The notes under the pieces: generated by a model | Database searches by the model: none | What the model saw: the letters and a program-made list of their open reading frames with translations, nothing else | Told to the model about the DNA's origin: nothing | Shown: piece after piece, positions 1,451 to 36,433 of the stretch | Position numbering within the stretch: the first letter of the stretch is position 1 | How the letters are laid out: each line of letters opens with the position of its first letter | NCBI GenBank assembly: GCA_900315765.1 | Contig: ONAK01000055.1 | Location: 1 to 36,743, forward strand | Source of the DNA: an uncultured Prevotella sp. | GTDB taxonomy: Bacteria; Bacteroidota; Bacteroidia; Bacteroidales; Bacteroidaceae | Direction of reading: 5' to 3' | DNA: 36,743 nucleotides | Made by a program: the position numbers and the translations under genes

Positions 1451-2059
1451 GGGGCGAACGGCGAAGTGAAGCCATATCGCGCCATGCTTATTCTTGGACG
1501 AGCCAAGCGGCGAAGCCGAGCGGCGCTCAATCAGCAGTTCGTCAAAGTCCTGCTTTGTATCGTTGCTGATGTCCAGCAGGATAGCCGCATAGCGGATGAG
1601 TTGCTCCATATCCTCCACACGAATATCCGCTGCACAACCCGTCAAGTGATTGCTATTACTCACCCCACCAATTGCCCGATTCAACTGCGGCGAGCGATAA
1701 CCAGAGTTGAGCCTGATAGGCTCTTCAGAGATCTCTCCACGCGCTACGCTTGGTCGAGATGACAAAGGGGGTGGAAGGAAACTTGGTCGAGATGACAGGG
1801 AGGGGAATGTCATGTCGAGCGCACTCCCCCCACCTGTCATGTCGAGCGTAGTCGAGACATCTCCTTTAACAACAACATACTTGTCGTTGTACCGCTTCCG
1901 CAATTCCTCTAGCCACACGCAGAGCCGCTTTAGGTTCGCAATCGCCTCGTGGCTGGGGATGTTATACACTTCGGGATGACTCCCGCTCCGGGTGAACTCC
2001 CCGAGCGTAAAGTGCTCGGAGAGTTTGGTGTTACTATTCAATTGTACTATTTCTTCCAT
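1412..2059 (-). CDS. Peptidase M15-like protein with in-frame palindromic-repeat insertions
   Basis: A 215-residue protein related to the M15 (D-Ala-D-Ala carboxypeptidase-like) family that accompanies DUF3987 and HU-like genes in Bacteroidales. The N-terminal part (LSEHFTLGEFTRSGSHPEVY) resembles a wall-binding or cap segment. The zinc ligands appear to be H138 and D145 in SNHLTGCAADI and H198 in WLHFAV. Two segments do not look like native protein: residues about 65-111 translate the palindromic repeat family (DVSTTLDMTGGG..., SSRPS twice), and residues about 180-190 (RSASPLGSSKN) translate a second repeat type. Both keep the frame, so the enzyme may still fold. It is probably last in the DUF3987 operon. 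A shorter relative at 33807-34103 is truncated by the same repeat at the same codon. Confidence 0.75.
   Translation of the reverse strand: MEEIVQLNSNTKLSEHFTLGEFTRSGSHPEVYNIPSHEAIANLKRLCVWLEELRKRYNDKYVVVKGDVSTTLDMTGGGSALDMTFPSLSSRPSFLPPPLSSRPSVARGEISEEPIRLNSGYRSPQLNRAIGGVSNSNHLTGCAADIRVEDMEQLIRYAAILLDISNDTKQDFDELLIERRSASPLGSSKNKHGAIWLHFAVRPSGNRRKVRLIQT
1725..1866. repeat. Palindromic repeat cluster inside the M15 gene
   Basis: Three adjacent units of one family: TGTCATGTCGAGCGTAGTCG with GAGACATCTCC near 1839-1866; a partial unit with TCGAGATGACAGGG near 1783-1825; and GAGATCTCTCCACGCGC followed by TACGCTTGGTCGAGATGACA near 1725-1765. Related units occur at 2085-2175, 14479-14597, 33830-33895 and 36100-36245, and I see none in the housekeeping part of the window. 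This one lies wholly inside an open reading frame and adds about 47 codons. Confidence 0.7.
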
Positions 2060-2591: not shown

Positions 2592-4994
2592 TTACAACTT
2601 ACGATAATTTCCGTCCTCTTCCAACACCACAAGCCCCTGCTTGCGCCAGTTCTTCAGCATCTGGCGAACGGTGTTGTAGTTCACTTTGGCACCTTTCACG
2701 GCTACCGAGTGCTGCATAGCCTGCTCGAACGAGAACTGGATATCCAGTCGCTCAAAGATAGAGTCATTCTTACCGCGTTTCTGCCGCTCACCATACATAC
2801 CACTTGCATAGTCACGACTAAGGAAAGCGTTCTCTATACGGTCGCGGAAGAAGTAAAGGGCGTTCTCAAGCAGCGAGTCGGCTATCACGTCATAGGCCTC
2901 CAGCATTGTAGGTGTCTGTGCTTTCAGCAAGAGTTCCTTCCATAGTCCAGGCTGCTGCTTCAACTTGGCCTCAGCACCGGTAAGTCCGTGCTTCTGAATC
3001 AACCCCTCGCACACTTTGCAGAGCATCATACAGCACGTCATTCGCTGAGCTGTTACGCACACACGGAAACGCTGACGGGCACGTGTACGATCGTCGTTCT
3101 TCATCGTCTCCAGTCGAATACGCTCTACCCATTCGCGGCCTTTGGCTTCGAGTTTCGGCAGCACCACCTCGCCGTACATCAGCGGCAGCAGGTGGGCTAT
3201 CTGCTGTATGCGGTCGCGCTGGCGATCGGTCATCACTGGCGGTATATCCTCAAGCTTCGCAAATGTATTGTCGGGCGTGCGGGCTACGGCGATACGGCTC
3301 TGAAATCCGTCGGTGTAGTTGTTTACCACGCGGTAAAGCGCATCGGGTGTGCCACACATTGTTACGTTCCACAACAGGTGCTTGATGTGCACATTTACAG
3401 CATCCACGCTTTTGGCTCGGCGTTCATACTTAGAGCCATCGTAGCTTTGACGCAGCATAACAGAGAAGTCGCTCATAGTCGATTTCCACTTCTGCGCTAC
3501 TGTGTCGGCCTCAGGCGTAAACGAGAAGGCGTGCTTACCCTCGGTATTAGCCAGCTGTTGAGCCAGATTAGCTACGGTGTTATTCAACGTAAGGTTACGT
3601 ATGGGTAGCATAGGTTCCTCAGGCTGGTCTTTCTTGTTTACCGATGCCTTTTTCTTTTTGCGCCATTCGTCCTCCTGCTGCGTGTACATATCGTCCAGCG
3701 CCTGCACCTCGCTCATCCAAGCCTCAACTACCGGATCAATACCTCCTTTACCCGAAGCAAAGTCACCGGCGATATATGAGATAAGATTCAGTCCGCGCTT
3801 AGTGCCGTGAACATCGAGCATTACACCCGTTGCTAGCGCGCCGATGCAAGGGCAGATAGCCGTAACAACCGGCATTGTCAAAGCAGGGCCTACGGCATCT
3901 ATCGAATCGCGAATGCCTTGTGGAAGTTTCTTGGTTGTCCATTGAACATTTGCGATTGAACAATCATCCTCGGCATCCGATTCTTGAACCACATCTTCCC
4001 TCTTACCTATTCCATCTGGCATCTGTAGTGCATTCAGCACATTCCTCAGTCGCGTAGGAAATCCGTTATACTCCGAACTCAGCGCGCTCTTAATCTTCTC
4101 GCGCTTCTCTTCGGGCGTAAAACCATCGTAGCAAGGTATCACCTTATCCAGCCAATCTGCATTCTTACCGCAGATGTGGCGCAGGTCGCAGGCCAACTGA
4201 TAGGTCAGCGTGTCTCGGTCGCCAATAGTAGGTTCAAACCCTTGATTGTTCACCTCCCAGTACTTTGCGATGATGTCCTTGAAGGGAATGCCGTGATAAG
4301 CATCGGGGTAATTTTTTGCTAGGACTACAGGACTTAAGGACTCAGTTTCTTCATTTTCAACAACCGAATCAGTCCTGTTAGTCCTGTAGTCCGTTGCTAA
4401 AAGAATCTCATCCTTCACACTCTCGCTTACGCTCTCTTCAAACAGTCGCTTGTCGGGGCCATAGAGCACGTAGCTTCTCGGCACTGCGAACGACCCTCGA
4501 GCCAGGTCCTTTGTCTTCGAATCGTCGGTTACACCAAGCTGAGCAGCCAACCATTGTTTCGACTGGTCTATGCGCTCTGTTGGTTTCAGATGCCCGAACT
4601 CACTCGGTATGATATAAACGATGCGCAATCCCTTACCCGAACAGCTCACGTGTACCAATACTATCAGATGCTCCAGCTCCAGCAAGATTAGCGTCTGCAC
4701 CAGACGCTTCCACACCTCGCGCGGGTCTTCGCCGTTCAGCTCGTCAAGGTCAAGATAGGCCATATTAGTGGGCACAGCGCTCTTAGCGTGTCGGTGCCCG
4801 TCGGTGTAGTTGGCCATAAACATCAGCAGCGGCAGTCTCTGTTTCAGTGTCTTTGCCTCGTCGCTATCATGGTCAACGGTGGTCAACTTCTGGCACACCT
4901 CAGCAACCTCTGGCGAGTCCAGAATCTCGTTCAGCTTATCCTGAGGGCAAGCCAGCACTTGTGCCGACTTGCCATTCTTGCAGTACGATATCAT
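2592..4994 (-). CDS. DUF3987 protein with VirE/BT4734-like primase-type N-terminal domain
   Basis: An 800-residue protein. The N-terminal region (about 1-190) resembles the BT4734/VirE-N domain, related to archaeo-eukaryotic primase folds: YLDLDEL at about 80-86 supplies an acidic pair and SCSGKGLRIVYII at 117-129 is the following core strand. The C-terminal region (about 360-720) matches DUF3987, with a P-loop-like ASGKGG near residue 412. Such proteins are common in Bacteroidales mobile and repetitive loci and are thought to act in DNA replication or helicase-primase steps; the exact role is not established. The ATG overlaps the stop of the upstream gene by 4 bp (4991-4994). It is the core of a minus-strand operon running from the OB-like gene to M15. 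Confidence 0.85.
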   Translation of the reverse strand: MISYCKNGKSAQVLACPQDKLNEILDSPEVAEVCQKLTTVDHDSDEAKTLKQRLPLLMFMANYTDGHRHAKSAVPTNMAYLDLDELNGEDPREVWKRLVQTLILLELEHLIVLVHVSCSGKGLRIVYIIPSEFGHLKPTERIDQSKQWLAAQLGVTDDSKTKDLARGSFAVPRSYVLYGPDKRLFEESVSESVKDEILLATDYRTNRTDSVVENEETESLSPVVLAKNYPDAYHGIPFKDIIAKYWEVNNQGFEPTIGDRDTLTYQLACDLRHICGKNADWLDKVIPCYDGFTPEEKREKIKSALSSEYNGFPTRLRNVLNALQMPDGIGKREDVVQESDAEDDCSIANVQWTTKKLPQGIRDSIDAVGPALTMPVVTAICPCIGALATGVMLDVHGTKRGLNLISYIAGDFASGKGGIDPVVEAWMSEVQALDDMYTQQEDEWRKKKKASVNKKDQPEEPMLPIRNLTLNNTVANLAQQLANTEGKHAFSFTPEADTVAQKWKSTMSDFSVMLRQSYDGSKYERRAKSVDAVNVHIKHLLWNVTMCGTPDALYRVVNNYTDGFQSRIAVARTPDNTFAKLEDIPPVMTDRQRDRIQQIAHLLPLMYGEVVLPKLEAKGREWVERIRLETMKNDDRTRARQRFRVCVTAQRMTCCMMLCKVCEGLIQKHGLTGAEAKLKQQPGLWKELLLKAQTPTMLEAYDVIADSLLENALYFFRDRIENAFLSRDYASGMYGERQKRGKNDSIFERLDIQFSFEQAMQHSVAVKGAKVNYNTVRQMLKNWRKQGLVVLEEDGNYRKL

Positions 4995-5377
4995 AGTCTG
5001 TACCCCCTTCCTTTAATCAGTTCGCGAATCACCTTCTGCGCTATCGCACTCGCCTGATGCACCAACTTCTCGGGCAACTGCTCCAGCTGATCCTCGTCGA
5101 GCGAGAAGTAGAAGTACCAGCGCTTGTTATGCCCTTGCGAAAGCGATGCGTTATCGTCGCGGAAGATAGGCTTATTGCGTCTGCGCTTCGGTTTCTCGGT
5201 CATATACACGTTTCCGTCGTGCTTGCCCTCCACCTTGAAAGTTCCTGAGAACGCCTCCATCTTAACATCCTCGCAGCACATAAAGTCTGCAGTCTTGAGT
5301 CCGTTCTCCAACATGCCGATGGTCAGCAGACCGTCGAGCGATACCTGTCTCTCTGTAGAAATATAGATTTTTTCCAT
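4991..5377 (-). CDS. Hypothetical protein upstream of DUF3987, 128 aa
   Basis: A 128-residue soluble protein beginning MEKIYISTERQVSLDGLLTI. It has a basic patch EKPKRRRNKPIFR near the middle and a C-terminal helix rich in Gln, Glu and Lys. The basic patch and setting suggest nucleic-acid contact, but no family is recognised. The open frame extends 25 codons further upstream; I prefer the ATG at 5377 because that extension reads like untranslated sequence (SKWPKNPKLLLAKQFKE). The stop overlaps the DUF3987 start, so translation is probably coupled. Confidence 0.6.
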   Translation of the reverse strand: MEKIYISTERQVSLDGLLTIGMLENGLKTADFMCCEDVKMEAFSGTFKVEGKHDGNVYMTEKPKRRRNKPIFRDDNASLSQGHNKRWYFYFSLDEDQLEQLPEKLVHQASAIAQKVIRELIKGRGYRL

Positions 5378-5464
5378 TTCTTTGAATTGTTTAGCGAGAA
5401 GAAGTTTCGGATTCTTTGGCCATTTACTCGAGAATATCCTCCTCGTCTTCAACTCAAAGATTAA

Positions 5465-5746
5465 TTATCTGTTCAATTTCACAATATCAGTAGCCAAAAC
5501 CTCTTGGAATACTTGGTTTTGATACTCGTGTGTAGAGAAACGAAGTGTGGCCACCACCACATCACCTTCGTAGAACCTGCACGCCGCCAGAGAGCCCAGC
5601 ATAGCGCACACAAACTCATTCTCAAACTTACCGCCCAGCTCCTTCAGCACAATGTTGCACTTCTGAATCTGGCCAGCCTCAGCCTTAGCCGACTGTACGC
5701 TGAAGGCCTCGCCCTGGCGTACCACTTTTAGGATTCTTGTATCCAT
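5465..5746 (-). CDS. Small OB-fold-like protein (DUF3127-like), 93 aa
   Basis: A 93-residue protein whose alternating strand pattern (QKCNIVLKELGGKFENEFVC, then GDVVVATLRFSTHEYQNQVF, then LATDIVKLN) resembles DUF3127, a compact OB-fold family in Bacteroidota related to single-stranded DNA-binding proteins. The match is by eye and not certain. It is the first gene of the operon that continues with the 128-residue protein, DUF3987, the 122-residue protein and M15. An ssDNA-binding protein next to a primase-like protein would make sense. The leader has a small hairpin at 5768-5787 and the likely promoter is at 6017-6024. Confidence 0.55.
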   Translation of the reverse strand: MDTRILKVVRQGEAFSVQSAKAEAGQIQKCNIVLKELGGKFENEFVCAMLGSLAACRFYEGDVVVATLRFSTHEYQNQVFQEVLATDIVKLNR

Positions 5747-5767
5747 TTACCTTGTTATTTATTTTAC

Positions 5768-5787
5768 GTCGCACCCTTGTATGCGAC
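5768..5787 (-). other. Short hairpin in the 5' leader of the DUF3987 operon
   Basis: GTCGCA and TGCGAC form a perfect 6-bp stem around an 8-base loop, 22 bases upstream of the OB-like gene's start. A second possible stem (ACTGCC with GGCAGT, about 5818-5856) lies further up the leader. The remaining sequence between 5857 and 6016 is AT-rich with no gene that I can see. These may be leader structures; no known riboswitch class is recognised. Confidence 0.35.
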
Positions 5788-6016
5788 CTTTAAGATTGAA
5801 AAATAGTCTTATTGAAAAACTGCCGTGCTGTCTCAGCAGAGCAGGCTTGTGGCAGTTCGCTAACCGCCTGAATGCAAAATTACGTTCTACCTAAAAAATT
5901 ATGAAAACAAAATGAAGTTTAACAAAAACTATAATCACAAAATCTGTATTTATATTATTGTATGAAAACCATTTCAAACAGCACCGTCAAATCCCCGTTT
6001 CCGTTCGTTGACGATG

Positions 6017-6024
6017 CAAAGGTA
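6017..6024 (-). promoter_or_regulatory. Probable promoter -7 box (TACCTTTG) for the DUF3987 operon
   Basis: The minus strand reads TACCTTTGCATCG, matching the Bacteroidota TAnnTTTG -7 consensus. It lies about 270 bp upstream of the OB-like gene, giving a long leader. No clear TTTG -33 element is present at the right distance, which fits an activator-dependent promoter. The phased ATCCCG array lies 40-100 bp upstream. Confidence 0.5.
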
Positions 6025-6063
6025 CGAACTATTATCTTCGGATTTATGGTTTTTAAAGTGCCC

Positions 6064-6119
6064 ATCCCGTACTTTCCCGTGATATCCCGAATTATCCCGT
6101 GATATCCCGAAATATCCCA
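6064..6119. repeat. Six ATCCCG units at exact 10-bp spacing
   Basis: ATCCCG or a one-base variant starts at 6064, 6074 (TTCCCG), 6084, 6094, 6104 and 6114 (ATCCCA). The strict 10-bp period places all six on nearly the same face of the helix. The array lies in the non-coding gap between two minus-strand operons, 40-100 bp upstream of the TACCTTTG box at 6017-6024. It looks like a multi-site protein-binding array, either activator sites or replication-type iterons. Confidence 0.65.
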
Positions 6120-6142
6120 TCAAGTACCTTTGGGAAAGGCAC

Positions 6143-6173
6143 AAAAAAAGCACCAGAAGATTATTCTGATGCT
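6143..6173 (-). terminator. Rho-independent terminator of the alpha-CTD-like operon
   Basis: On the minus strand AGCATCAGAA pairs with TTCTGGTGCT (one G-U pair) around a 5-base loop and is followed by seven T. It lies 25 bp past the stop of the 151-residue gene and ends the operon beginning at the promoter near 8490. Confidence 0.8.
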
Positions 6174-6197
6174 TACAAACTTCAACTATGAAGTATC

Positions 6198-6653
6198 TTA
6201 TTTCGTATAAATATTACTGAAGTGCTTTTCGCTATAACCCTCACTTGTTGGCATTCCCAATCGTACTAACTCCTTATACATAGCAGCCGAAGCAGAAGGC
6301 AACAAAGCCTTTCTCTTCTGCTTTAATTCCTTCAGGTACGCACATATTTCAGGCACCTTCTGGTGAGCCACAAGCCGCTTTACGGCATCGTGAATACGCC
6401 AAGCCTCATCATCATCAATCTCTGGATGAACAAAGTGAAACCTCTCTTCGTTTCGCTCATGAGGCTTGCAGGTGGGCTGCTCATCAGTGTTTACAGGGGC
6501 TGGCTGCAGAGTTTCTTCTTTTATTTCTTCATAATCTGCCTCCTCAGCATCAGCAGTATGCCAGAACCCATTCTTATCTTGCACCAACGTCAACTTTCCA
6601 CCAGCGTTAACCTCGACGTTTGGTCCGTAATTATTCTTAATATTGAATCCCAT
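6198..6653 (-). CDS. Hypothetical protein with N-terminal NYGPN motif, 151 aa
   Basis: A 151-residue acidic protein, family not recognised. It starts MGFNIKNNYGPNVEVNAGGK and continues LTLVQDKNGFWHTADAEEAD; the C-terminal half (EAWRIHDAVKRLVAHQKVPEI, then LKELKQKRKALLPSASAAMY) is predicted helical. The NYGPNVEVNAGGKLTL segment repeats, with changes, at the C-terminus of the protein encoded immediately upstream (NYGPNIDLTDGGLLRL). The gap to that gene is 11 bp, so they are one transcript. No signal peptide or membrane segment. The gene is followed by a good terminator. Confidence 0.65.
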   Translation of the reverse strand: MGFNIKNNYGPNVEVNAGGKLTLVQDKNGFWHTADAEEADYEEIKEETLQPAPVNTDEQPTCKPHERNEERFHFVHPEIDDDEAWRIHDAVKRLVAHQKVPEICAYLKELKQKRKALLPSASAAMYKELVRLGMPTSEGYSEKHFSNIYTK

Positions 6654-6664
6654 TTCGCTTAAAT

Positions 6665-7477
6665 TTACTCTTTATTATTCAGTCTCAGCAAACCTCCATC
6701 AGTTAGATCGATATTGGGTCCATAGTTTTGGTCTATGTTTGTTTCTTTATTCTGAACAATTTCAAGATGACAATTAACCTTTGGAGTCTCCGCTATCTTC
6801 ATCATCGCCTCTGTCAATTCCTTACGCTGCTCTATAGGTCCAAACAGGCGCTCGCGATATTTCTTTAATAAATCCGGAAAGTGGTCACGCCACGCTTTCT
6901 GCACACAGATAATAGGATTTGCATTGAGGTCTCTCAACATATCCCAAGCCGTACCAGCAGGATATAGCTCTAACTCAGCATCAACATCTTCAATTGGGAT
7001 AGACGCAAGCACCATCTCTTCGAGTTTTTCTTTAGTCTTATCCAACTCCTTACGAGTCCGACTTGTTTGGTCTTTCAGCTGCTGGATAAGTTCTTCTTTC
7101 TTATGGTTATCGTCCAAAATCTCATTATAGCTAGGTGGGCGATGCTCGCGAAGTAAACGCTGAAAATCCTCGGGGAATATGGTGTCGCACAAAGGATAAA
7201 GCAGCTCGGATGGTTCACATCTTTGCATCTCCTCGCACATAAGAGATATGGTTCTATCCGTCGCAATCTTTTCTTTCTTAGTCATTTTCAACTCGTCAAC
7301 ACAATCCAATAGTCCACAATAGAAAATGTGCATATGCGGTTTGAACGACTGACTTGAGTGCATAACAGTCTCTGCTACTTTATAAAAATTCGTCCACTTC
7401 ACGCCTATAATGTGCCTAATCATGACAGAATAGTAATGCTTTAAGAAAAGCCAATGTTGGTAAAGCAGATCCAGCAT
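6665..7477 (-). CDS. Downstream part of a gene split by an in-frame TAA; coiled-coil and NYGPN tail
   Basis: 270 residues from ATG 7477. There is a helical first half, a coiled coil around residues 125-155 (KKEELIQQLKDQTSRTRKEL, then DKTKEKLEEM), and a C-terminal NYGPNIDLTDGGLLRL tail. The frame is open upstream through nine sense codons (DWTKERKKE) back to the TAA that ends the 183-residue gene at 7505, so both open frames are in register and probably come from one 462-residue gene with a nonsense codon. Initiation at 7477 is possible because the purine-rich codons upstream resemble a Shine-Dalgarno sequence. The family is not recognised. Confidence 0.55.
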   Translation of the reverse strand: MLDLLYQHWLFLKHYYSVMIRHIIGVKWTNFYKVAETVMHSSQSFKPHMHIFYCGLLDCVDELKMTKKEKIATDRTISLMCEEMQRCEPSELLYPLCDTIFPEDFQRLLREHRPPSYNEILDDNHKKEELIQQLKDQTSRTRKELDKTKEKLEEMVLASIPIEDVDAELELYPAGTAWDMLRDLNANPIICVQKAWRDHFPDLLKKYRERLFGPIEQRKELTEAMMKIAETPKVNCHLEIVQNKETNIDQNYGPNIDLTDGGLLRLNNKE

Positions 7478-7504
7478 TTCCTTCTTCCTCTCCTTAGTCC
7501 AGTC

Positions 7505-8056
7505 TTATTGCATTATCATTGTGAAAGCATGCAGTACACACAGCACCTCGTCGGTCTTATAATCGTAACACGCCTCATGAGTAAAGAGCATCTTCTGAAG
7601 TTCATCAGACAATTTACTCCATTCTTGTTGGCAATCATACTCCAAAAGCAACTCCAGCACATGAAAGAATCGATAGATACGCTTAGCCTCTTTCTCATAG
7701 CGTTTCAAGTTATCGCCCCAACATTCTGCCGCATAAATCAAGTTCTTTTCTGATGCCCATTTGCCAAACTGATCATCATACTTAATGATGTATTCCATTT
7801 TGCGCCTTATAAACTCTAGCCGGTCACCAGCGCAACAGAGCTTTGTATCGCCGTTAAGATACAATTCATAGTAAGGCACCATCACATCATGCAGCATACT
7901 CTTATAATTTGGATCATACTTGGGACTGTAACCTTGCCAGTAATACTTTTCATACAAGTTTACTGTTGGTTCTCCACTCTCCCCCTTCATTAGTCGCTCC
8001 AATGGATTGGTCACGGCGTCTCGGATGTATTCTTTAGTTTTGTCTATATTGTACAT
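7505..8056 (-). CDS. Upstream part of the split gene, 183 aa
   Basis: A helical protein beginning MYNIDKTKEYIRDAVTNPLE, with several aromatic pairs (KYYWQGYSPKYDP). I prefer the ATG at 8056, preceded by an AAAAGG-type sequence, over a start 14 codons further up. It ends ...FTMIMQ at TAA 7505-7507, and the next nine codons plus the downstream 270-codon frame continue in the same register. One base change at that codon would restore a continuous protein. It follows the alpha-CTD-like gene by about 64 bp, probably in the same operon. No domain recognised. Confidence 0.55.
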   Translation of the reverse strand: MYNIDKTKEYIRDAVTNPLERLMKGESGEPTVNLYEKYYWQGYSPKYDPNYKSMLHDVMVPYYELYLNGDTKLCCAGDRLEFIRRKMEYIIKYDDQFGKWASEKNLIYAAECWGDNLKRYEKEAKRIYRFFHVLELLLEYDCQQEWSKLSDELQKMLFTHEACYDYKTDEVLCVLHAFTMIMQ

Positions 8057-8120
8057 TATCTTTTTACCTTTTGTTATCGGTTTATTTCTCTGAAACAATC
8101 TTCTTGGATTCCATTTCTGG

Positions 8121-8456
8121 TTATTTCCATTCTACATCATACTCCCTAAATATAAATTGCTGAACTTGTTCAATACATTTTTTGCCCAGATCTCTGTATC
8201 TTGCCACTTCGCTTGGTCTTCTTTTAAGAAGATCACCAAGTGTTTCAATTTCACCGTACCCATTATTTCTGCAAACAGTATGGAATCTTGTTGTTAGGGC
8301 TTTAGTTCCTAACTGTATTTCAGAAATTGAGATGTCGTCATATTGACTATAATATGCATCTCTACTGAATGTTTCAATCTCGCTGATAATCTCTTTGGCT
8401 TCGGAAACAATCTCATTTAGCCGGCTTAATTTTCTAAGTAATTCTTCTTTTTCCAT
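8121..8456 (-). CDS. Small protein with RNA polymerase alpha-CTD-like domain, 111 aa
   Basis: Residues 1-40 (MEKEELLRKLSRLNEIVSEA...) form a likely coiled coil. Residues about 45-108 resemble the C-terminal domain of the RNA polymerase alpha subunit: an LGTKALT helix, ETLGDLLKRRPSEV, then RYRDLGKKCIEQVQQFI, corresponding to the alpha-CTD pattern (IGDLVQRT, then NLGKKSLTEIK). That fold is a helix-hairpin-helix that binds UP-element DNA and activators. With no alpha N-terminal domain it cannot be a core subunit; it could be an accessory DNA-binding protein or an alpha mimic. The ATG at 8456 is chosen because the promoter box at 8486-8493 lies just upstream, ruling out the longer frame from 8528. 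It is the first gene of its operon. Confidence 0.65.
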   Translation of the reverse strand: MEKEELLRKLSRLNEIVSEAKEIISEIETFSRDAYYSQYDDISISEIQLGTKALTTRFHTVCRNNGYGEIETLGDLLKRRPSEVARYRDLGKKCIEQVQQFIFREYDVEWK

Positions 8457-8485
8457 TATTGATAATCCTATTTTGAAAACGGTTG

Positions 8486-8493
8486 CAAAGATA
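8486..8493 (-). promoter_or_regulatory. Probable promoter -7 box (TATCTTTG) of the alpha-CTD-like operon
   Basis: The minus strand reads TATCTTTGCAACCG, a full match to TAnnTTTG, 30 bp upstream of the ATG at 8456. The preceding terminator hairpin (8495-8542) overlaps the expected -33 region, where no TTTG is visible. Confidence 0.65.
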
Positions 8494-8494
8494 C

Positions 8495-8542
8495 TAAAAA
8501 TCCCCCACACTCCAGCACATTTATGCATGAAATATGGGGGAT
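8495..8542 (-). terminator. Terminator-like hairpin after the zinc-ribbon gene
   Basis: On the minus strand ATCCCCCA pairs with TGGGGGAT across a 27-base loop that has inner pairing potential, and the stem is followed by five T. It separates the zinc-ribbon gene (stop at 8569) from the alpha-CTD-like promoter. Confidence 0.6.
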
Positions 8543-8568
8543 GTGAACAAAAATATATATGATTAACA

Positions 8569-8742
8569 CTAGTCTATCATAATGACAGCACCAGTTTCTT
8601 TCATTTCGCCACCGCATTTAGGACATTTCTTTGGAACTTTAGTCGTTTCTATTTCTCCTGACATCACTACGGTACGACCTTTCCTTGTGCCAGTTACGGT
8701 ATAACCACAACCGCCGCATTTATACTCTTTTAATGTTCCCAT
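8569..8742 (-). CDS. Zinc-ribbon microprotein, 57 aa
   Basis: A short frame reading MGTLKEYKCGGCGYTVTGTR and ending KETGAVIMID. It has two CxxC knuckles, CGGC at residues 9-12 and CPKC about 30 residues later (KVPKKCPKCGGEM), the layout of a rubredoxin-like zinc ribbon. Such small ribbons occur as stand-alone nucleic-acid or protein adaptors; no role can be assigned here. It starts 3 bp after the stop of the broken DUF6794-like gene, so the two formed an operon, and it is followed by a hairpin with a T run. The clean CxxC pair makes a real gene likely despite its size. Confidence 0.75.
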   Translation of the reverse strand: MGTLKEYKCGGCGYTVTGTRKGRTVVMSGEIETTKVPKKCPKCGGEMKETGAVIMID

Positions 8743-8745
8743 AAT

Positions 8746-9028
8746 CTATAACCCTTTCCGCTTTAAATATCTCTGATAATACTCGATAATCTTTCCAGAC
8801 AAGCCATCCGGATCAAAGACTATATAATCCATCCTAAACGCTTTTGCCAAACGAGTGACATCCTCCTCTTTCTGCTCATAGATCCAATTGTTTCGAATCC
8901 ACATACCTAATGAGAAGTGAAAACTCTACGGCATCACCTTTTACTAACTCATTCTTCTCCTTCTCACTCAGTATCTCGTCCAACTGAGCAAAGGCTTCTT
9001 GCTTTGTTTTAGGTATTTTTGTTTCCAT
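8746..9028 (-). pseudogene. DUF6794-like protein gene with a +1 frameshift
   Basis: From ATG 9028 the frame reads METKIPKTKQEAFAQLDEIL and SEKEKNELVKGDAVEF, then goes out of register and stops after about 50 codons. Removing one base from the four-T run (AAAA at 8920-8923 on the plus strand) restores EFHFSLGMWIRNNWIYEQKE followed by a sensible C-terminus down to the TAG at 8746-8748 (FDPDGLSGKIIEYYQRYLKR, then KGL). The opening segment and the MWIRNNW motif are typical of DUF6794-like small proteins in Bacteroidales, of unknown function. It is either a real frameshift or a homopolymer error. The intact protein would have about 93 residues. Confidence 0.6.
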
Positions 9029-9071
9029 ATTACTTTATACATTGATTCTACTTTGCCGATAACGAAAAAGT

Positions 9072-9107
9072 ATCGGTGATAACGATCATTTATCAATGGA
9101 ACCGACC
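9072..9107 (-). repeat. Possible decayed ninth CRISPR repeat
   Basis: This 36-base segment matches the consensus repeat at 20 of 36 aligned positions without gaps, including ATC at one end, an ATTT core, ATGG and the final ACC. It lies 35 bases beyond the last recognisable repeat, at the leader-distal end where repeats are already degenerate; the true spacers are 28-30 bases. The spacing and identity are suggestive only. The segment also overlaps a small hairpin (CCGATA/TATCGG at 9055-9076). Confidence 0.25.
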
Positions 9108-9142
9108 TACATGATTTCCAAAAACGAGGACGACTTCCAGGA

Positions 9143-9635
9143 ATCTGCGATAGCAGAAATTTTACTATGGTTACACCGACGCCGCGACAAGGACATGGAC
9201 GACTGATCTGCAATAGCAGAAATTTCAACTCGGTTTTCACCTGAAATATTATGAGTCTTACAAATCCAAAATCTGCAACAGCAGAAATTACACTATGGTT
9301 TACACCTCTGTGATGGCTACCCCCGCTGACCCAACGATCTGCAATAGCAGAAATTTAACTAGGGTTTACACCTTCAGCAGGCTTCTGCTCACCTTGCTTT
9401 TATCTGCAATAGCAGAAATTTTACTATGGTTTACACCGGTGCCATATACGATATATGCACGTCTTAGATCTGCAATAGCAGAAATTTTACTATGGTTTAC
9501 ACCTCGCTCTATCTGCACCATGTCGAGGTAGTCATCTGCAATAGCAGAAATTTTACTATGGTTTACACCGCAGCCCGCACCGATAGCGGTAAGCGATACA
9601 TCTGCAATAGCAGAAATTTTACTATGGTTTACACC
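9143..9635 (-). CRISPR. Type V-A CRISPR array, 8 repeats and 7 spacers
   Basis: Repeats of 36 bp (the last one 35) begin at 9143, 9206, 9271, 9337, 9402, 9468, 9534 and 9600, with spacers of 28-30 bp. On the minus strand each repeat starts GGTGTAAACCATAG and ends AATTTCTGCTATTGCAGAT, the Cas12a crRNA handle with stem TCTGC/GCAGA. The array is read in the same direction as cas12a and begins 56 bp after its stop codon. The four leader-proximal repeats (9402-9635) are identical. Those at 9143, 9206, 9271 and 9337 carry changes, mostly in the 5' part removed during processing, so the old end is at 9143. A probable promoter lies at 9645-9675. Confidence 0.97.
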
Positions 9636-9644
9636 ATTTGTTTG

Positions 9645-9675
9645 CAAAAGTAATGATTCTCAATCATTTATGCAA
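9645..9675 (-). promoter_or_regulatory. Probable promoter of the CRISPR array
   Basis: The minus strand has TACTTTTG (9652-9645), a match to TAnnTTTG, with TTG (9675-9673) about 20 bases upstream as a -33 element. The first repeat begins 9 bases past the box, so the transcript would start at or just before it. Between the two boxes lies the perfect inverted repeat ATGATT-CTC-AATCAT (9653-9667), which could be an operator or a weak stop for cas12a transcription. Confidence 0.55.
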
Positions 9676-9691
9676 GTTTTTAGGTGACAAA

Positions 9692-12600
9692 TTACTCCAA
9701 ATATGGTTTCTCAACCATAAACTGGAACCATTTTTCGTTTTCTATTTTCTTCGTTTCAGGGTTTCGGAGCAGATAAAGTCCCTTCAAAGCGATGTGATAT
9801 GCGCCATTTGCATCTGCATCTACAGGTAGCCTTGATACCCAGTTGCCCTGCGCATCTCTGCCTTTGTTTGCCTCATCAGTGCTGCAGAAGTGATGCCCAT
9901 CTTTTGCTACAGGTGAAAGGATGAAATCTTCTTCCGTTAAAGCATTGCTGTTACGCATCTGTAGAGTCTTTTGGAATGCATAGAGCAGCGTGCCAAAGAA
10001 GCCTGCATTAGTAGCATTGGCCTCAACATCTGCAATGAGCGCCTTTAAATCAGAACCCTCAGACAACAGGATGCCTTTGTTCTTAAAGGCATAAATAATA
10101 TCGTTTGTTGGTTCGTAATCCACCATCTTTTTATATCCTTTTTCGTCTATTCGCATCACAATTCGTTTTCCGAAAGTACTTACGGTCCAAACGTTTTGAT
10201 AGTCTGTCTGGTAAGTCTTAAACTTACGATAGTCGAATGTAAATTCTATATATCCATTCTTCATCTCAATGCGCTCCATCTTCATCAAGAAGTCTTTTCG
10301 CTTTTCTGCATTGGTGATATCGTTGAAGTTGAAATGATTTACAAAGCCTGTCACAGGGTCTATCTTGGAGGTATAAGCTGCAGGAATATAGAACAAGAAA
10401 CCACTCTGTTTACCTAATCTCTGGAAACTAACAAACTTCTGTGCCATCTGGTAACCTCTAAGTATACCTCCTTCTTCGCCTACCTCACGATCCTTAAATG
10501 ACAGATAATTCAGCTTATCTATCAGCATTTTCTCGAACTTCTGATATACCTGACGCTCCACTTTAAAACGACCACGTTTGAAACCAAAGTTCAAATCCTC
10601 AAGAACCACGATGGCATTGTTTTCAATCATCATCTTAGTTATCTCATGGATAACGGCAGAAAGAAAGCCTTCTTTCAAATCCTTTATTTTACCAACACTA
10701 TCCCAACTTTTACGAGCCTCGTCGCGTTCTTTTTCTCGCTGTTCCAACTTGACCTGATAGTTGTAATTATTCACAATGTTAAAAGTCTTCTGCTTTATGA
10801 TTTCTCCACGCTGATTAATCAATGTGAGGTAAATCAGATGACGTTCACCACGGTCAATACCTATGATATTCACGTCAGGATTATACTTCAGATAGTTCAG
10901 CACTTGCTCATTAATATACTCATTACCATCAGCATTGGCATTTAACGTCAGAGGTACATGGAAGAAGTATTCTTGCCTGGTGTATCTGCGGTCTTTAATG
11001 ATTTCGTGGGTAACATCCTTCACTATCACCTGATCCATATACTGCTTTTCTGCAGTTGTTAGCTCACTCTCTTTCTTCTTACCATTATAGAACTGATACA
11101 AACTGCGATAGATATTTTCTGGTATGGGCATACCGCTCTTATCCCTACGATTCAGCATCTTCGAACCAATCTTATGCGACACAGGCTTCTTGATACTCTG
11201 AGGACGGCAGAACAATTCTGCCTGACCATTTAGTTTCAGAACCAGATTACTCAAATTCTCATCAGTAAAAAGATTCTCCCAATAGAGTGTATGCAGATTC
11301 TTTCGTCCATGAGCCCCTTCTGCATAATCCTTATTATACAGCTGGAACAGATACAACTGACCATTATCAACCCACTCGTTCACCTGAGACTCTGTTATAT
11401 CAGTAAAACGAATCTTGTAAGCCTGCTTCTTGATTTCACTAAAGAAGGCACCAATATCCTCATACGACTCCGTTGGAGAATACTGGAAGTTGAACTTGCT
11501 CCAATCAGGATCAATAGCAATTGCCGCCTTGTAGAAATCTATAAAGTCATGAAGGAACTTCTTGTCAAAATTTGGTCCTTTCTTGTATTTACCCAATTCC
11601 CTTCCTTCTAAGATATACTCTGATGGCTTGTAGAAATCAAGATTACCCTTAGCGAATAACTTATGGGGCAGATCCTTTGACGGATCAGACAGAAGTTTGT
11701 AAATCATTTTTTTATATGAAGAAGATGACGCATCGCCCTTGGCATCTTTTATCTTTGCTTTGTTCTTGGCATTTAAAACACCTAAATACGATTTACCATC
11801 CTTGAAAAGAAGAATCGCGTTATTCTTCATTTCCTTATTCTGGTCCCATCCACTTGCCAATGAAGGCGACTCAAAATTTAGTTTAAACTTCTTAACGTCA
11901 GATGGTTTTCGAGTGAGGTAATTCCTTACCTTATTATATAACAGGAAGAGTGTATCAAGTTCCTCATAGAGGGGTATGAATTCGTTATAGAAACTCTTGT
12001 CAACCTCGTACTCTTCTGGCATTACCAAGACTGCGCTCTTATGGTATAGCTCCATCATTGCATCTAACAGACACTTCACCACTTCAGTACCCATTGGGTT
12101 ATTAAGGAACTTCTGTTTTTCATCACTCCTACACCATTCGTTAAACTGCATCCAATAGCCATTAATAGCATTGAGCATTTGTGGTAATTCAGAGTAATAG
12201 CGTGAGAAACTGACAACCTCGTCAAAACACAAATCAGACAAGCAATAGGCTTTACGTGAAAGATATGCATCTACTTTCTTCTTATTCTTGGCTACAGAGA
12301 TGTCACCATACTGCATGATAGCCTTTTCTTTCAGTTTCTCTTCGATAATGCTCCACTTGCCATATACCTTCTGAGATATGTCTGTCAGTTTGCTGGCTGA
12401 TATACATATACCATCAGGATTATATGAGTCTATATTCCCCAGCACAGCCACCAATTCTGATAGCACATTGACCGTTTTTCCATCCCGCTCGAAGTGGGTA
12501 ATATGCTCATAGAATTGTTTGATAGAAGATACTAGCTCATCTTCTGATTCTATCTGTACAGGAATGTATGACAAAGTTTCACGATCAGACAAAATCTGTT

Positions 12601-13450
12601 TGAAAAGAGGTATCATCGTCATAGCCTTCTTGGAGGCTGCAAGATCTTTGTGCTGTTGACGATAGAGATTTGAGAACTCGTTGATTCCACGATATTTCTG
12701 TTTACCTTCTTCGCTCACACCACCAATTACACGGTTATAGAAATCTATTCCGTCCTGAGTCAATAGAGAATTATAGAAATCAAGTGAAAATATATCGTCG
12801 ATCATTACCCCTTCTAAAAAAGGCTGTAACTCTTCTGATGCCTGCTTGATAACTTCTGGGCATACAGACCTGATTCTGTCATAGACCTCCTGGTTAGAAA
12901 GGAACTTAGGAAAGTTATCATGTACTATTCTATAAGGAACTCCCGTACTGATGGATTCCTGACTATAGATATTAATTCTGTTCTCTTGAAACCCGCTGAA
13001 ATAGGTAGCAAAGCCACGGAAAGACATCAATGAGTCATCATCGCTGAATTCAGGAAGGACTGAGGTAATCAAATCGCTGGGGGTTGCAGCTGTTAACTCC
13101 TTGAAATGCTTGAAATCCTTGATTGCAGCAGCAATCTGTTTACGCATGATGGTCTGCTCTGCCTCAAGTCGTTTCTTGGACTCGTCACTCTTGGTCTTTT
13201 GAAAAATGACAATAGCTTCTTTCAAAGGAGCCCAATCAAAGTGAACGTTTTTTAAAGAGTCATGAATACAAATTTTATGGTACTCATCAATAAGCTTCTT
13301 GACCGTAGGATAATCTGCGGCTTTCTGTACATCACCTTCTAAAACCTTATTAATTTCTATCCATTCTTGTGTCTTACCAATAGGTCTCAACTCAAAGCGC
13401 AAGGTCTTTGAAACAGGATATATGCCGATAAATTGTTTTAAGTTGTTCAT
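9692..13450 (-). CDS. cas12a: CRISPR-associated endonuclease Cas12a (Cpf1)
   Basis: A 1252-residue type V-A effector that processes its own crRNA and cuts double-stranded DNA with one RuvC site. It starts MNNLKQFIGIYPVSKTLRFE, the usual WED-I opening, followed by REC lobes. The PAM-side segment YKKGPNFDKKFLHDFIDF is present. Pre-crRNA processing residues appear conserved: H759 (VSHKIGSKML) and K819/R822 (HEIIKDRRYT), with Arg768 where AsCas12a has Lys. Catalytic residues are D866 (GIDRGERHL), E951 (VVLEDLNFGF), R1166 (LQMRNSN) in the Nuc domain and D1213 (DADANGAYH). All key residues are present, so the enzyme should be active. ATG 13450 is chosen over the in-frame upstream start at 13525 because the promoter box lies at 13484-13491. 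No cas1, cas2 or cas4 is in the window. Confidence 0.98.
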   Translation of the reverse strand: MNNLKQFIGIYPVSKTLRFELRPIGKTQEWIEINKVLEGDVQKAADYPTVKKLIDEYHKICIHDSLKNVHFDWAPLKEAIVIFQKTKSDESKKRLEAEQTIMRKQIAAAIKDFKHFKELTAATPSDLITSVLPEFSDDDSLMSFRGFATYFSGFQENRINIYSQESISTGVPYRIVHDNFPKFLSNQEVYDRIRSVCPEVIKQASEELQPFLEGVMIDDIFSLDFYNSLLTQDGIDFYNRVIGGVSEEGKQKYRGINEFSNLYRQQHKDLAASKKAMTMIPLFKQILSDRETLSYIPVQIESEDELVSSIKQFYEHITHFERDGKTVNVLSELVAVLGNIDSYNPDGICISASKLTDISQKVYGKWSIIEEKLKEKAIMQYGDISVAKNKKKVDAYLSRKAYCLSDLCFDEVVSFSRYYSELPQMLNAINGYWMQFNEWCRSDEKQKFLNNPMGTEVVKCLLDAMMELYHKSAVLVMPEEYEVDKSFYNEFIPLYEELDTLFLLYNKVRNYLTRKPSDVKKFKLNFESPSLASGWDQNKEMKNNAILLFKDGKSYLGVLNAKNKAKIKDAKGDASSSSYKKMIYKLLSDPSKDLPHKLFAKGNLDFYKPSEYILEGRELGKYKKGPNFDKKFLHDFIDFYKAAIAIDPDWSKFNFQYSPTESYEDIGAFFSEIKKQAYKIRFTDITESQVNEWVDNGQLYLFQLYNKDYAEGAHGRKNLHTLYWENLFTDENLSNLVLKLNGQAELFCRPQSIKKPVSHKIGSKMLNRRDKSGMPIPENIYRSLYQFYNGKKKESELTTAEKQYMDQVIVKDVTHEIIKDRRYTRQEYFFHVPLTLNANADGNEYINEQVLNYLKYNPDVNIIGIDRGERHLIYLTLINQRGEIIKQKTFNIVNNYNYQVKLEQREKERDEARKSWDSVGKIKDLKEGFLSAVIHEITKMMIENNAIVVLEDLNFGFKRGRFKVERQVYQKFEKMLIDKLNYLSFKDREVGEEGGILRGYQMAQKFVSFQRLGKQSGFLFYIPAAYTSKIDPVTGFVNHFNFNDITNAEKRKDFLMKMERIEMKNGYIEFTFDYRKFKTYQTDYQNVWTVSTFGKRIVMRIDEKGYKKMVDYEPTNDIIYAFKNKGILLSEGSDLKALIADVEANATNAGFFGTLLYAFQKTLQMRNSNALTEEDFILSPVAKDGHHFCSTDEANKGRDAQGNWVSRLPVDADANGAYHIALKGLYLLRNPETKKIENEKWFQFMVEKPYLE

Positions 13451-13483
13451 TGTAATAGGTTTTAAATATTCATTATCTTGCCA

Positions 13484-13491
13484 CAAAGATA
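13484..13491 (-). promoter_or_regulatory. Probable promoter -7 box of cas12a (TATCTTTG)
   Basis: The minus strand reads TATCTTTGTGGC 34 bp upstream of the cas12a ATG. A TTTG at 13517-13514 lies 22 bases upstream, slightly more than the usual 19-21. No Shine-Dalgarno sequence is visible before the ATG, as is common in Bacteroidota. Confidence 0.6.
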
Positions 13492-13593
13492 CAAAATAAA
13501 ATAGATAATAATTCAAATTGAGCATTTTTTTGCATTATAATTAAATAACAGCAGGCTATTTATGCAGGTGTAGTATCTTATTCTTTACCAAGT

Positions 13594-13740
13594 GGTCATT
13601 TGGTCAAGGTCATTTGGTCATTTTCGAATCGGGAACGCGGTTATTTACTCACTATAATATAAATATAAATATTTATATTATAGTGGCGGATTTTGACAGT
13701 GTGTTTTCGATTTTGACAAATGACAAATGACCAGATGACC
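13594..13740. other. 147-bp dyad element with A/T palindrome (island A)
   Basis: Two arms of about 72 bases face each other. The left arm starts GGTCATTTGGTCAAGG and the right arm, read from 13740 on the minus strand, starts GGTCATCTGGTCATTTGTC; each holds four GGTCA/GTCA units. The centre (13650-13685) is a perfect 36-bp palindrome: CACTATAATATAAATAT, AA, then its complement. The midpoint of the arms and the centre of the palindrome agree within one base. It lies 223 bp upstream of the HU-like gene. The layout suggests a protein-bound origin, partition or recombination site. The rest of the 13492-13962 gap holds the HU promoter and nothing else I recognise. Confidence 0.7.
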
Positions 13741-13962: not shown

Positions 13963-14475
13963 ATGGCATTAAAAGTAAAAGCTAAGGAACAGTATCAGAA
14001 CATCGGCAAGTATGCTGGTAAGTATCGTTACGTGATGATGCCGGAGCTCTATACGGCTCTGACTCAGGACAAGGTGATTAAGGAGGCGGCTCTGCGCAGC
14101 GGAGTGAGTAAGGGAATCATGCAGGCATGCTGGGATGCAGCCGGCGAGGTGATCAAGGCGTGGGCCACTGAGGGTCACTCGGTAGCGCTGCCAGGATTGG
14201 GCACCATGCGATTCGGACTGCGCGCCAAGAGCGTGGAGAAGGTAGACGAGGTGAAGGCCGGTCTGATTTCGAGTCGTCGCATCATCTTTACGCCAGACAG
14301 CGACCTGAAGGAGGAGCTCTCGAAGACTGCCGTGCAGATTACCTGTTTCGACCGCACCGGCAAAGAGGTGAAGCGCGTTACCAGCACCGACAGCGGTGAC
14401 ATCGAGGACAACGAGAACACCCAGCCAAGCAATGGTGGCGGTACAGGTCATGGCAACCCAGGTGAAGGAGATTAA
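13963..14475 (+). CDS. HU-like DNA-binding protein (Bacteroidota histone-like family), copy A
   Basis: A 170-residue protein of the HU-related family that is frequent in Bacteroidales (DNA-binding, histone-like). The N-terminal helical part includes ELYTALTQDKVIKEAALRSG and is followed by the beta-arm start VALPGLGTMRFGLRAKSVE. A longer beta region (SRRIIFTPDSDLKEELSK) and an acidic, Gly-rich tail (SNGGGTGHGNPGEGD) go beyond canonical HU (about 90 residues). It should bend or coat DNA. Its last nine residues, GHGNPGEGD, are identical in the copy at 35560. It is followed by palindromic repeats and a smalltalk gene, probably in the same transcript. The dyad at 13594-13740 is a candidate target. 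Confidence 0.85.
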   Translation: MALKVKAKEQYQNIGKYAGKYRYVMMPELYTALTQDKVIKEAALRSGVSKGIMQACWDAAGEVIKAWATEGHSVALPGLGTMRFGLRAKSVEKVDEVKAGLISSRRIIFTPDSDLKEELSKTAVQITCFDRTGKEVKRVTSTDSGDIEDNENTQPSNGGGTGHGNPGEGD

Positions 14476-14646: not shown

Positions 14647-14748
14647 ATGACAAAGAAAGAAACAGCAAAGTTTATTGTTCAGTTGATTGCTTCGATTGCA
14701 TCGGCGATACTGACGGCACTGGGGGCTACCTCGTGCATGGGTATGTAA
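14647..14748 (+). CDS. Smalltalk protein, 33 aa, copy A
   Basis: Reads MTKKETAKFIVQLIASIASA and ILTALGATSCMGM. It belongs to the short 'smalltalk' family found beside HU-like genes in Bacteroidales; its function is unknown to me. A lysine-rich start, one hydrophobic helix and a terminal ATSC-MGM give it the shape of a type II (lipoprotein) signal peptide with almost no mature part. The frame is open further upstream, but that part crosses the palindromic repeat, so ATG 14647 is chosen; it also matches the start of copy B (27 of 33 residues identical or similar). A strong hairpin follows at 14781-14820. Confidence 0.8.
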   Translation: MTKKETAKFIVQLIASIASAILTALGATSCMGM

Positions 14749-35121: not shown

Positions 35122-35141
35122 CAGTCTAAAACACATACCAT

Positions 35142-35329
35142 GCATAACATGCATAACATCTGCAAAATGAGAAGTAACTAATTGGAGCAACAAGTGCGGC
35201 GGAGTAGAGAATTATATTAATATAATATATACTAAATATTATATATATTATAATATATATAATATCATAATACACCCTAATAGCTCAAATTATGCACATC
35301 CGAGTACGGACATGTTATGCATGTTATGC
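35142..35329. other. 188-bp dyad element with A/T centre (island B)
   Basis: The 18-bp arm GCATAACATGCATAACAT (35142-35159) recurs perfectly inverted at 35312-35329. Each arm is two GCATAACAT units. The centre, 35210-35271, is 62 bp with only two non-A/T bases. The right arm ends 231 bp upstream of the HU-like gene, compared with 223 bp in island A. The rest of the 34982-35559 gap holds promoters and, from 35330, a GC-rich stretch (GCCCTCCACGCGGCGGCAC). Confidence 0.7.
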
Positions 35330-35488
35330 TGTTATGCCCTCCACGCGGCGGCACTTCTTTGCCCATGAAATTACGTTTATCTGGTCATGAAATTACGGTT
35401 CGTAGGCCATGAAGTGGTACACCATTTTAATTAACAACATTTAACAAAAACAATTCGAAAATAATTTTTTAGTTAGACTTTATATTCG

Positions 35489-35496
35489 TACCTTTG
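35489..35496 (+). promoter_or_regulatory. Probable promoter -7 box of HU-like copy B (TACCTTTG)
   Basis: TTCGTACCTTTGTACCG, 64 bp upstream of the HU-like ATG. A TTTAG-like sequence stands where the -33 element would be expected. The leader is A-rich with repeated CATTAA segments. Confidence 0.55.
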
Positions 35497-35559
35497 TACC
35501 GTCAATCATGAGAGACATAAACATTAAAACATTAACCATTAAAAATTACAAAACGCATT

Positions 35560-36072
35560 ATGGCAAAGATTTTTTATTTACTGAAACAAAACAAGGCACA
35601 GGGTTCTAAAATTTTCGGCAAGTGGTTTGCTCATGGCAAAACCATCGAGACTCTGAACACACGAAAGATGGCTAACCACATCAGCGAGCACGGCTCTATC
35701 TACACACCTGACGTGGTGTTTGGTGTGCTGGAGAAGTTCCGCAGTTGTCTGCTGGAGATGCTTCTGAATTCGAAGCGTGTGAAGATTGACGGTCTGGGAA
35801 TCTTCTACACCACTCTCGAGAACGAGAAAGGTGGTGCAGACAAGAAGGACGACTTCAGCCCAACCAAGAACCTGAAGGCTCTGCACATCCGATTCTTGCC
35901 CGATCAGGAGGCTGAGACAAACATCAGCTCGCGAGAGTTTATCAAGAAAGCCGAGTTCGTTAATGCAGAGGCATTGGCAGGTCAGCTGCTAGAGAGTGGC
36001 TCAGGAGACAGCCCAAGTGGCAACGGCGGCGGCAACGGCGGCGGCCATGGCAACCCTGGCGAGGGAGATTAA
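35560..36072 (+). CDS. HU-like DNA-binding protein, copy B
   Basis: A 170-residue member of the same HU-related family as the gene at 13963, the same length but only distantly similar over the body. HU-type helices (LNTRKMANHISEHGSIYTPD, then VFGVLEKFRSCLLEMLLNSK) lead to VKIDGLGIFYTTLENEKGG, the arm start. The Gly-rich end (GNGGGNGGGHGNPGEGD) has the same last nine residues as copy A (GHGNPGEGD). A hairpin directly overlapping the stop (AAGCGATTGGGGC-ATTA-GCCCCAACGCTT, 36071-36099) separates it from the repeat cluster and the smalltalk gene. Confidence 0.82.
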   Translation: MAKIFYLLKQNKAQGSKIFGKWFAHGKTIETLNTRKMANHISEHGSIYTPDVVFGVLEKFRSCLLEMLLNSKRVKIDGLGIFYTTLENEKGGADKKDDFSPTKNLKALHIRFLPDQEAETNISSREFIKKAEFVNAEALAGQLLESGSGDSPSGNGGGNGGGHGNPGEGD

Positions 36073-36245
36073 GCGATTGGGGCATTAGCCCCAACGCTTC
36101 CTCCCCCCCTGTCATGTCGAGCAAGCGTTCCTTCTACCCACCTTGTCATTCCGAGCGTAGTCGAGGAATCTTTGCGGCTTTAGCCGCTTGCGCCTTTGGG
36201 CGCATTTATGAGATGTCTCCACGCGCTTCGCTTGGTCGAGAATGA
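36071..36245. repeat. Hairpin and palindromic repeat cluster between HU-like and smalltalk genes (B)
   Basis: Starts with the hairpin TTGGGGC-ATTA-GCCCCAA, then CCTGTCATGTCGAGC, then CTTGTCATTCCGAGCGTAGT, then two short hairpins GCGGC-TTTA-GCCGC and TGCGCC-TTT-GGGCGCA (36173-36206), and ends GAGATGTCTCCACGCGCTTC, GGTCGAGAATGACA. It occupies the same position as the cluster at 14479-14597. Confidence 0.7.
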
Positions 36246-36397: not shown

Positions 36398-36433
36398 AAA
36401 AAAAAGAGCCACTTGAAAGGTGGCTCTTTTTTA
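36398..36433. terminator. Bidirectional rho-independent terminator
   Basis: AAAAAAGAGCCAC pairs with GTGGCTCTTTTTT around a 7-base loop, with A and T runs on both sides. It ends the smalltalk transcript on the plus strand and the M13 peptidase gene on the minus strand. Confidence 0.9.

Follow-up and report, generated by a model that had tools for sequence, protein, structure and literature searches.

Organization of the locus

The window, that is, the whole stretch of 36,743 nucleotides from an uncultured Prevotella sp. that was analysed here, contains two units of like layout, in which an inverted repeat with an A/T-rich centre precedes an HU-HIG gene and a smalltalk gene (Table 1). In window B, the dyad arms (35142–35159 and 35312–35329) are complementary at 18 of 18 bp and hold two GCATAACAT units each, exactly as the earlier note on this DNA had described them, and the A/T-rich centre that it placed between them is also present. 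The arms of island A (13608–13623 and 13725–13740), composed of GGTCATTT units, are complementary at 15 of 16 bp. We calculated duplex stability using nearest-neighbour energies; with these values, the minimum for 50 bp anywhere in the 36.7-kb window falls at positions 35215–35264 (–39.2, compared with a mean of –67.9 and an sd of 5.6), and the dyad centre of island A has the fifth lowest stability among non-overlapping 50-bp stretches. The right arm lies 230 bp from the HU ATG (35560) in window B and 222 bp in island A; the similar layout had been recognized before, with distances of 231 and 223 bp, figures that presumably include one base more. The gene order reported to follow the dyad, namely HU, repeat cluster and smalltalk, is indeed common to both units. 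The repeat cluster in window B (36090–36250) is of the GTCATTCCGAGCG type, and alike repeats were seen upstream of other HU genes (L001, L007). We take TAnnTTTG to be the –7 promoter consensus, and TACCTTTG was called a candidate element of the HU promoter on this basis.

Table 1. Coordinates of the features of island A and window B
Feature	Position	Strand	Remark
Peptidoglycan-peptidase-like gene, downstream of island A initiator	1412..2059	-	Weak MepK match under cut-off
Island A putative initiator, BT4734-like N-terminal domain and DUF3987	2592..4994	-	Weak MCM/Cch-like fold matches
Predicted C-terminal winged helix of island A initiator	2595..2771	-	Residues 742–800; part covarying with iterons
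Island A cargo, between initiator and putative origin	4991..13525	-	Includes CRISPR array and Cas12a (9692–13525)
Island A dyad, GGTCATTT iterons	13608..13740	.	Around AT palindrome 13650–13685
Island A HU-HIG gene	13963..14475	+	
Island A smalltalk	14647..14748	+	
Window B left iteron array, GCATAACAT units	35134..35159	+	First unit degenerate (CATACCATG); outer end is the homology stop for most copies at unrelated sites
Window B A/T centre	35210..35272	.	61/63 A/T; perfect 30-bp palindrome 35236–35265; proposed melting element
Window B right iteron array	35312..35337	-	18 bp perfect complement of left, plus partial third unit
TACCTTTG, candidate –7 element of HU promoter	35489..35496	+	Match to TAnnTTTG
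Window B HU-HIG gene	35560..36072	+	PF18291; TIGR01201 score under its cut-off
Window B smalltalk, 33 aa	36295..36396	+	NF033879; PF20096 in genome search; shared homology of dispersed copies stops at or just past stop codon
Terminator-like hairpin	36400..36432	.	Varies from copy to copy

Recurrence and design of the dyad

Enrichment of such dyads had been proposed as a check by the earlier note, and it was found. We scanned 600 bp upstream of relatives of the window B HU gene, most of the named ones from rumen Prevotella and Xylanibacter, for inverted arms with an A/T run of at least 20 in the centre, using 59 of 76 fetched loci (the other 17 had <600 bp upstream of the match). Such dyads were present at 31 of 59 loci, whereas none occurred in 354 random 600-bp windows taken from these loci or in 177 dinucleotide shuffles. 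The corresponding numbers were 33/59, 5/354 and 0/177 when the A/T condition was dropped, and 29/59, 0/354 and 0/177 when it was combined with an arm score of at least 18. One locus scored as lacking a dyad (L065) carries one slightly further upstream. The dyad is thus a real and recurrent cis element, beyond chance. A search of the open-access literature, covering titles and the beginnings of abstracts, found no earlier description of it.

The further claim that the dyad is general to HU/smalltalk units was not borne out, since 28 of the 59 close relatives lacked it by the criteria above. Within the family, 72 of 151 genomes have the smalltalk gene itself. In three other genera, none of 21 smalltalk loci (L277–L297) had an A/T-centred dyad, and the A/T run never exceeded 23 within 2.6 kb upstream; at one of these loci (L279, 6495–6840), 7-bp words form inverted arrays upstream of smalltalk but enclose no A/T centre, and another (L297) has a different inverted repeat there. 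Among eight smalltalk loci (L298–L305) from five other genomes of the genus of the window, one had the dyad. By eye, we recognized it at 4 of 70 smalltalk loci, some of them overlapping (L301, L310, L311 and L316, the first of which belongs to the genus of the window).

Where the dyad is present, its design is common: inverted arms of tandem 7–9 bp words, mostly of 8 bp, flank an A/T stretch, and the word varies among islands. When the period of whole arms was scored at 75% identity in 82 merged dyads, a few of which are probably spurious (e.g. L084, L087 and L338), it was 8 in 29, 7 in 8, 9 in 3 and 10 in 1, with 41 unscored, compared with 81 of 82 unscored for shuffled arms. Many centres have the palindromic core ATATATTATAATATAT in common, and the words disagree between groups. 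As in iteron-type origins, tandem short repeats adjoin an A/T-rich stretch that is, by calculation, easily melted. Some variants were also seen. Two tandem dyads with unlike words (CGGTTACG and CATAACAA) precede a single HU gene in L129 (1161–1601), and a dyad of GC-rich words in L133 (1395–1584) is apparently without an HU gene directly after it. Three islands with TATTCA words (L058, L060 and L061) have in common a gene of ~351 aa with no assigned function to the left of the dyad.

Covariation of the iteron words with the initiator

In full islands, the dyad is followed leftwards by cargo and then by a protein of the BT4734/DUF3987 type, the putative initiator. As the partner of each initiator we took the dyad that scored best in the 16 kb upstream of it, a procedure by which some pairs may be wrong, and compared word similarity (shared 5-mers) with protein identity for each segment. 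Dyads were found for 24 of 44 initiators in a first set and 14 of 40 in a second, or for 16 of 22 and 13 of 21, respectively, where at least 9 kb upstream was covered. For the 22 pairs of set 1, r was 0.18, 0.50, 0.63, 0.63 and 0.72 for residues 1–200, 200–400, 400–600, 600–700 and 700–800 of the window initiator; L037 and L338 had been removed by hand for their weak A/T palindromes and the equally weak L348 retained, and a rerun with nothing dropped agrees. The partial correlation was 0.44 for the C-terminus given the helicase (0/2000 permutations) and –0.17 for the helicase given the C-terminus. Set 2 is a second clade of 14 pairs, found via an initiator remnant beside CATAACAT arms, and its initiators, like those of L059 and L061, were recognized by BLAST likeness only. 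Here, r was 0.675 for the last 60 aa (0/2000 permutations), but only 0.26 for the first segment, 0.08 for the middle one and 0.11 for the late one. When all 39 pairs were combined with nothing dropped, the last 60 aa gave 0.55 and a partial correlation of 0.45 (0/1000 permutations); L061, whose initiator lies on the opposite side of smalltalk, had been omitted from a separate combined set.

The permutation tests ignore kinship, which is addressed by the partial correlations and by mosaic proteins. For example, the initiators of L387 and L401 are 78% and 85% identical over the first two thirds and their iterons are unrelated, whereas L401 and L416 have iterons in common, and the last 60 aa of their initiators agree at 98%. 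The nearest neighbour by the last 60 aa has common iterons (similarity of at least 0.3) in 18 of 35 cases, compared with 5, 7 and 8 of 35 for the other segments. Among initiators like that of island A (about 50–70% identical), all nine with a paired dyad have GTCA in their words. Ten further ones, five of them with >3 kb upstream, had no dyad in the available sequence; for one of these (L324), an adjacent stretch (L364) holds a GTCATT dyad ~18.6 kb from the gene, an expectation that was not recorded beforehand. An additional observation is that the N-terminal third of initiators is swapped between otherwise alike proteins.

Word similarity therefore follows the last 60 residues of the initiator, the predicted winged helix, and the correlation with the helicase that was seen in set 1 vanishes once the tail is allowed for. 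The suggestion that arm families track with DUF3987 or HU sequence groups accordingly holds for DUF3987, specifically its C-terminal part, and hardly for HU: in 17 islands with a recognized HU gene, r was 0.16 with HU, compared with 0.63 with the initiator. HU as the reader of the arms was rejected on this value and because identical arms occur with two HU families. The covariation shows that iterons and winged helix form a matched pair, a signal that a transcriptional operator would also yield.

We examined the tail in a structure predicted for the window initiator (pTM 0.50, mean pLDDT 76), in which residues 742–800 fold into three helices plus two strands. When this tail was modelled together with only the region before it, its residues scored 80 to 95, and it matched winged helices from IclR, Fur and DpnI, with no E value below 0.03. 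For the whole model, the best match among MCM helicases had an E of 4e-5 (TM 0.21 when scaled to the query length), ORC/Cdc6 and SCCmec Cch (5dgk; E 0.025, probability 0.90–0.97) were matched as well, and a sequence-profile search with the initiator found no helicase of solved structure. The helicase likeness of the modelled protein is thus weak and relies on what has been predicted in print for DUF3987 (PMC5862659).

A putative replication origin

Because facing arrays of words, a centre of least stability and a primase-helicase tail that follows the words all fit, we consider it likely that the dyad is the replication origin of an integrated mobile island, of the iteron type found in SaPI and SCC elements, read by the C-terminal winged helix of the initiator. 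In such an origin, the two inverted arrays of 7–9 bp iterons would be bound by the winged helix of the BT4734/DUF3987-type primase-helicase, and two initiator rings would assemble face to face over the A/T palindrome. The palindrome could then serve as the melting element, where the duplex would open and be primed, and HU may help shape the origin complex. Since iteron and winged helix change together, each island would have its own specificity, a private lock and key.

The main rival to an origin is an operator read by the same tail, in which the DUF3987 winged helix would bind the iterons to control divergent operons (cargo and initiator leftwards, HU and smalltalk rightwards) without any start of replication. 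We regard this as rather unlikely, although the dyad does separate divergent genes, with candidate promoter elements on either side, and the covariation would look identical. However, an operator has no need of a long palindrome made almost entirely of A/T, which has the lowest calculated stability in the window, and the reader of the words is of the primase-helicase type. The leftward operon is, moreover, absent from stripped units that have kept the dyad, and SaPI and SCC helicases recognize their origins through C-terminal domains (PMC7581432).

A dispersed unit of ~1.26 kb

Copies of the CATAACAT class at unrelated sites are 83–92% identical, and the match between them ends sharply. The left limit is mostly the outer end of the left word array (35134), and the right limit lies at or shortly past the smalltalk stop codon (36396; BLAST ends at 36395–36439); one pair, window B and L099, has ~90 bp of extra common sequence on the left. 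From these sharp limits, we assign the window B dyad to a dispersed origin-HU-smalltalk unit of ~1.26 kb (35134–36396). The terminator-like hairpin beyond it differs among copies and is therefore probably a property of the site, not of the unit. In the source genome, the dyad of window B also precedes a different HU family (C49), so that CATAACAT arms adjoin two HU families, and in another contig (C126) the match to window B spans the interval between A/T centre and HU start and leaves out the arms; judged from these alignments, the parts of the unit recombine. Same-arm copies (window B, C135 and C49) are integrated together in this genome. The proposal of the earlier note that the arm words form recognition groups, as expected of replicons, is supported; strict incompatibility was not seen, though the copies concerned are integrated ones.

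The source genome has 20 smalltalk genes and 23 matches to the HU-HIG model, which also matches in 9 of 14 control genomes, so that its counts include ordinary HU. Among the 40 genomes searched, 17 contained smalltalk; besides the source genome, three had 14, 10 and 7 copies, and the remainder had 0–4. In searches for empty sites, relatives on the cupin side match to about 33711–33756 at most and then diverge, and an M13 peptidase search reached 51% at best, a 25-residue fragment set aside, and so gave no close orthologue. A glutaminase search for the same purpose matched six genomes.

Sharp limits at unrelated sites and the high smalltalk copy number in a few genomes (20, 14, 10 and 7) would also be expected if the arms were terminal inverted repeats or recombination sites of a miniature transposon or cassette of ~1.26 kb. 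This is improbable, because both arms lie in the left ~200 bp of the unit rather than at its two ends, unlike those of a MITE, and because arm words that are wholly unlike between otherwise alike units follow the primase-helicase; an unsystematic look, in addition, revealed neither a transposase nor a target duplication. Invertible promoters of Bacteroidales carry inverted repeats of comparable size and spacing, but an invertible promoter segment is highly improbable here, as the asymmetric inner spacer has one orientation in 6 of 6 related copies (window B, C135, L043, L045, L070 and L099) and the iterons and A/T palindrome would be left unexplained. A transcript folding into a long regulatory hairpin, for which one could cite the TATCTTTG element at 35114 just upstream of the left arm, is equally hard to credit, given that the iterons go with a predicted DNA-binding domain and that no Rfam family reached its gathering score (of two matches far below it, one lay over the A/T centre).

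If the dyad is a replication origin, as we prefer, the window B unit would need an initiator from elsewhere or be a relic. No initiator is in view beside it or beside the other stripped units seen. In L045 and L099, CATAACAT arms adjoin initiator remnants with identities of 100% over 51 aa and 98% over 82 aa to a protein of the source genome (C22), and a second matching initiator of that genome, on contig C99, is 82% and 90% identical to them. An intact initiator beside a CATAACAT dyad was not found, and the C22 and C99 genes both run off contig ends. It is therefore possible that the window B unit is either a relic or a non-autonomous unit that the C22 and C99 initiators would serve in trans.

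Cargo and mobile-element context

We compared the cargo with genes beyond smalltalk. The cargo set consisted of 48 ORFs of at least 240 aa, from 109 of at least 90 aa in 21 islands, and the control set of 48 of 60 ORFs beyond smalltalk, with the eight longest and four shortest left out. The cargo matched 375 PADLOC models and the controls 45, where the figures count models, not proteins, and include 15 Cas12a models on one protein, many methyltransferase models and many near-duplicates. Among the Pfam matches listed for the 48 cargo ORFs (25 of 43 families) were several restriction-modification types, Cas12a, RloB and phage antirepressor domains, plus non-defence families, and no integrase. 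By eye, we named Cas3, Cas7, HsdR and HsdS genes beside L068, L108, L049 and L055. In island A, the interval from the initiator to the putative origin contains a CRISPR array of ~8 repeats (counted by eye) and the Cas12a gene (9146–13525).

Downstream of initiators, amidase, DUF5675-like and P5-like cell-wall genes were named by eye. In about 14 of 21 islands, again by eye, the gene after the initiator is of cell-wall-lytic appearance and comes from one of several families (e.g. 1412–2059 in the window, L323, L327 and L357).

Phage and plasmid homes of the unit were considered and rejected. No HU relative was confirmed in viral contigs, there was no phage DNA match, and the CATAACAT dyad pattern had no exact match in viral contigs. 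HU relatives occurred in six plasmid or secondary-chromosome records, at 27–36% identity, and the window initiator had no plasmid match. Three viral contigs with distant initiators (25–26%), two of which extend only ~1.3 kb upstream of the gene, contained no inverted repeat of the kind sought. An initiator relative (62% over 71% of the query) is encoded on an unverified human faecal record of 4.1 kb that is labelled as phage (L431, MT839699.1); by eye, a small gene precedes it and a DUF5675-like gene follows. This record represents either packaged island DNA or contamination.

Implications

These results lead us to a tentative proposal, which we hold with less confidence than the origin itself: Prevotella-lineage genomes may house many related islands that replicate and often carry defence cargo, in which a private origin word and winged helix are exchanged as a module, together with spreading, non-autonomous origin-HU-smalltalk units of ~1.26 kb that could be fired in trans by any initiator with a matching helix. 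A little-known set of Bacteroidales genes (DUF3987, HU-HIG and smalltalk) would thereby gain a concrete and testable role, and the 39 natural initiator-origin pairs are a possible source for working out the code by which the winged helix reads its words. A slot with defence genes (Cas12a, restriction-modification) would be tied to a predicted replicon, which bears on the spread of defence genes among gut and rumen bacteria.

Comparison with known systems

SCC elements carry a ccr recombinase and insert at rlmH/orfX. The islands described here resemble SCCmec in being resident cassettes with cargo, in the weak fold match to Cch (5dgk), and in that the C-terminal domain of Cch is described as binding direct-repeat iterons. 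However, the iterons of Cch2 are 5-nt direct repeats, deletion of the inverted repeats there left binding unaffected, and the helicase family differs from that found here.

In SaPI, likewise an integrated island, the C-terminal domain of the helicase reads short origin iterons; both SaPI Rep and SCC Cch2 recognize iterons in this manner, and two Rep hexamers have been proposed for SaPI (PMC7581432). The SaPI origin lies just downstream of rep, whereas the putative origin here is upstream of the initiator, past the cargo and adjoining HU. The islands further differ from SaPI in their BT4734/DUF3987-type initiator, in iterons arranged as two inverted arrays around an A/T palindrome, and in that no integrase or packaging genes were recognized in the parts of them that were scanned.

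A role as the replicative helicase of mobile elements has been predicted for DUF3987, with a C-terminal winged helix suggested for origin recognition, and the PrimQH-type archaeo-eukaryotic primase-helicases resemble the present initiator in both respects (PMC5862659). That paper names BT4734-like proteins as a separate primase family and is not known to describe an origin for them. A final likeness is to the RepA_N origin of PLE, a satellite with an iteron-binding initiator (PMC7145576).
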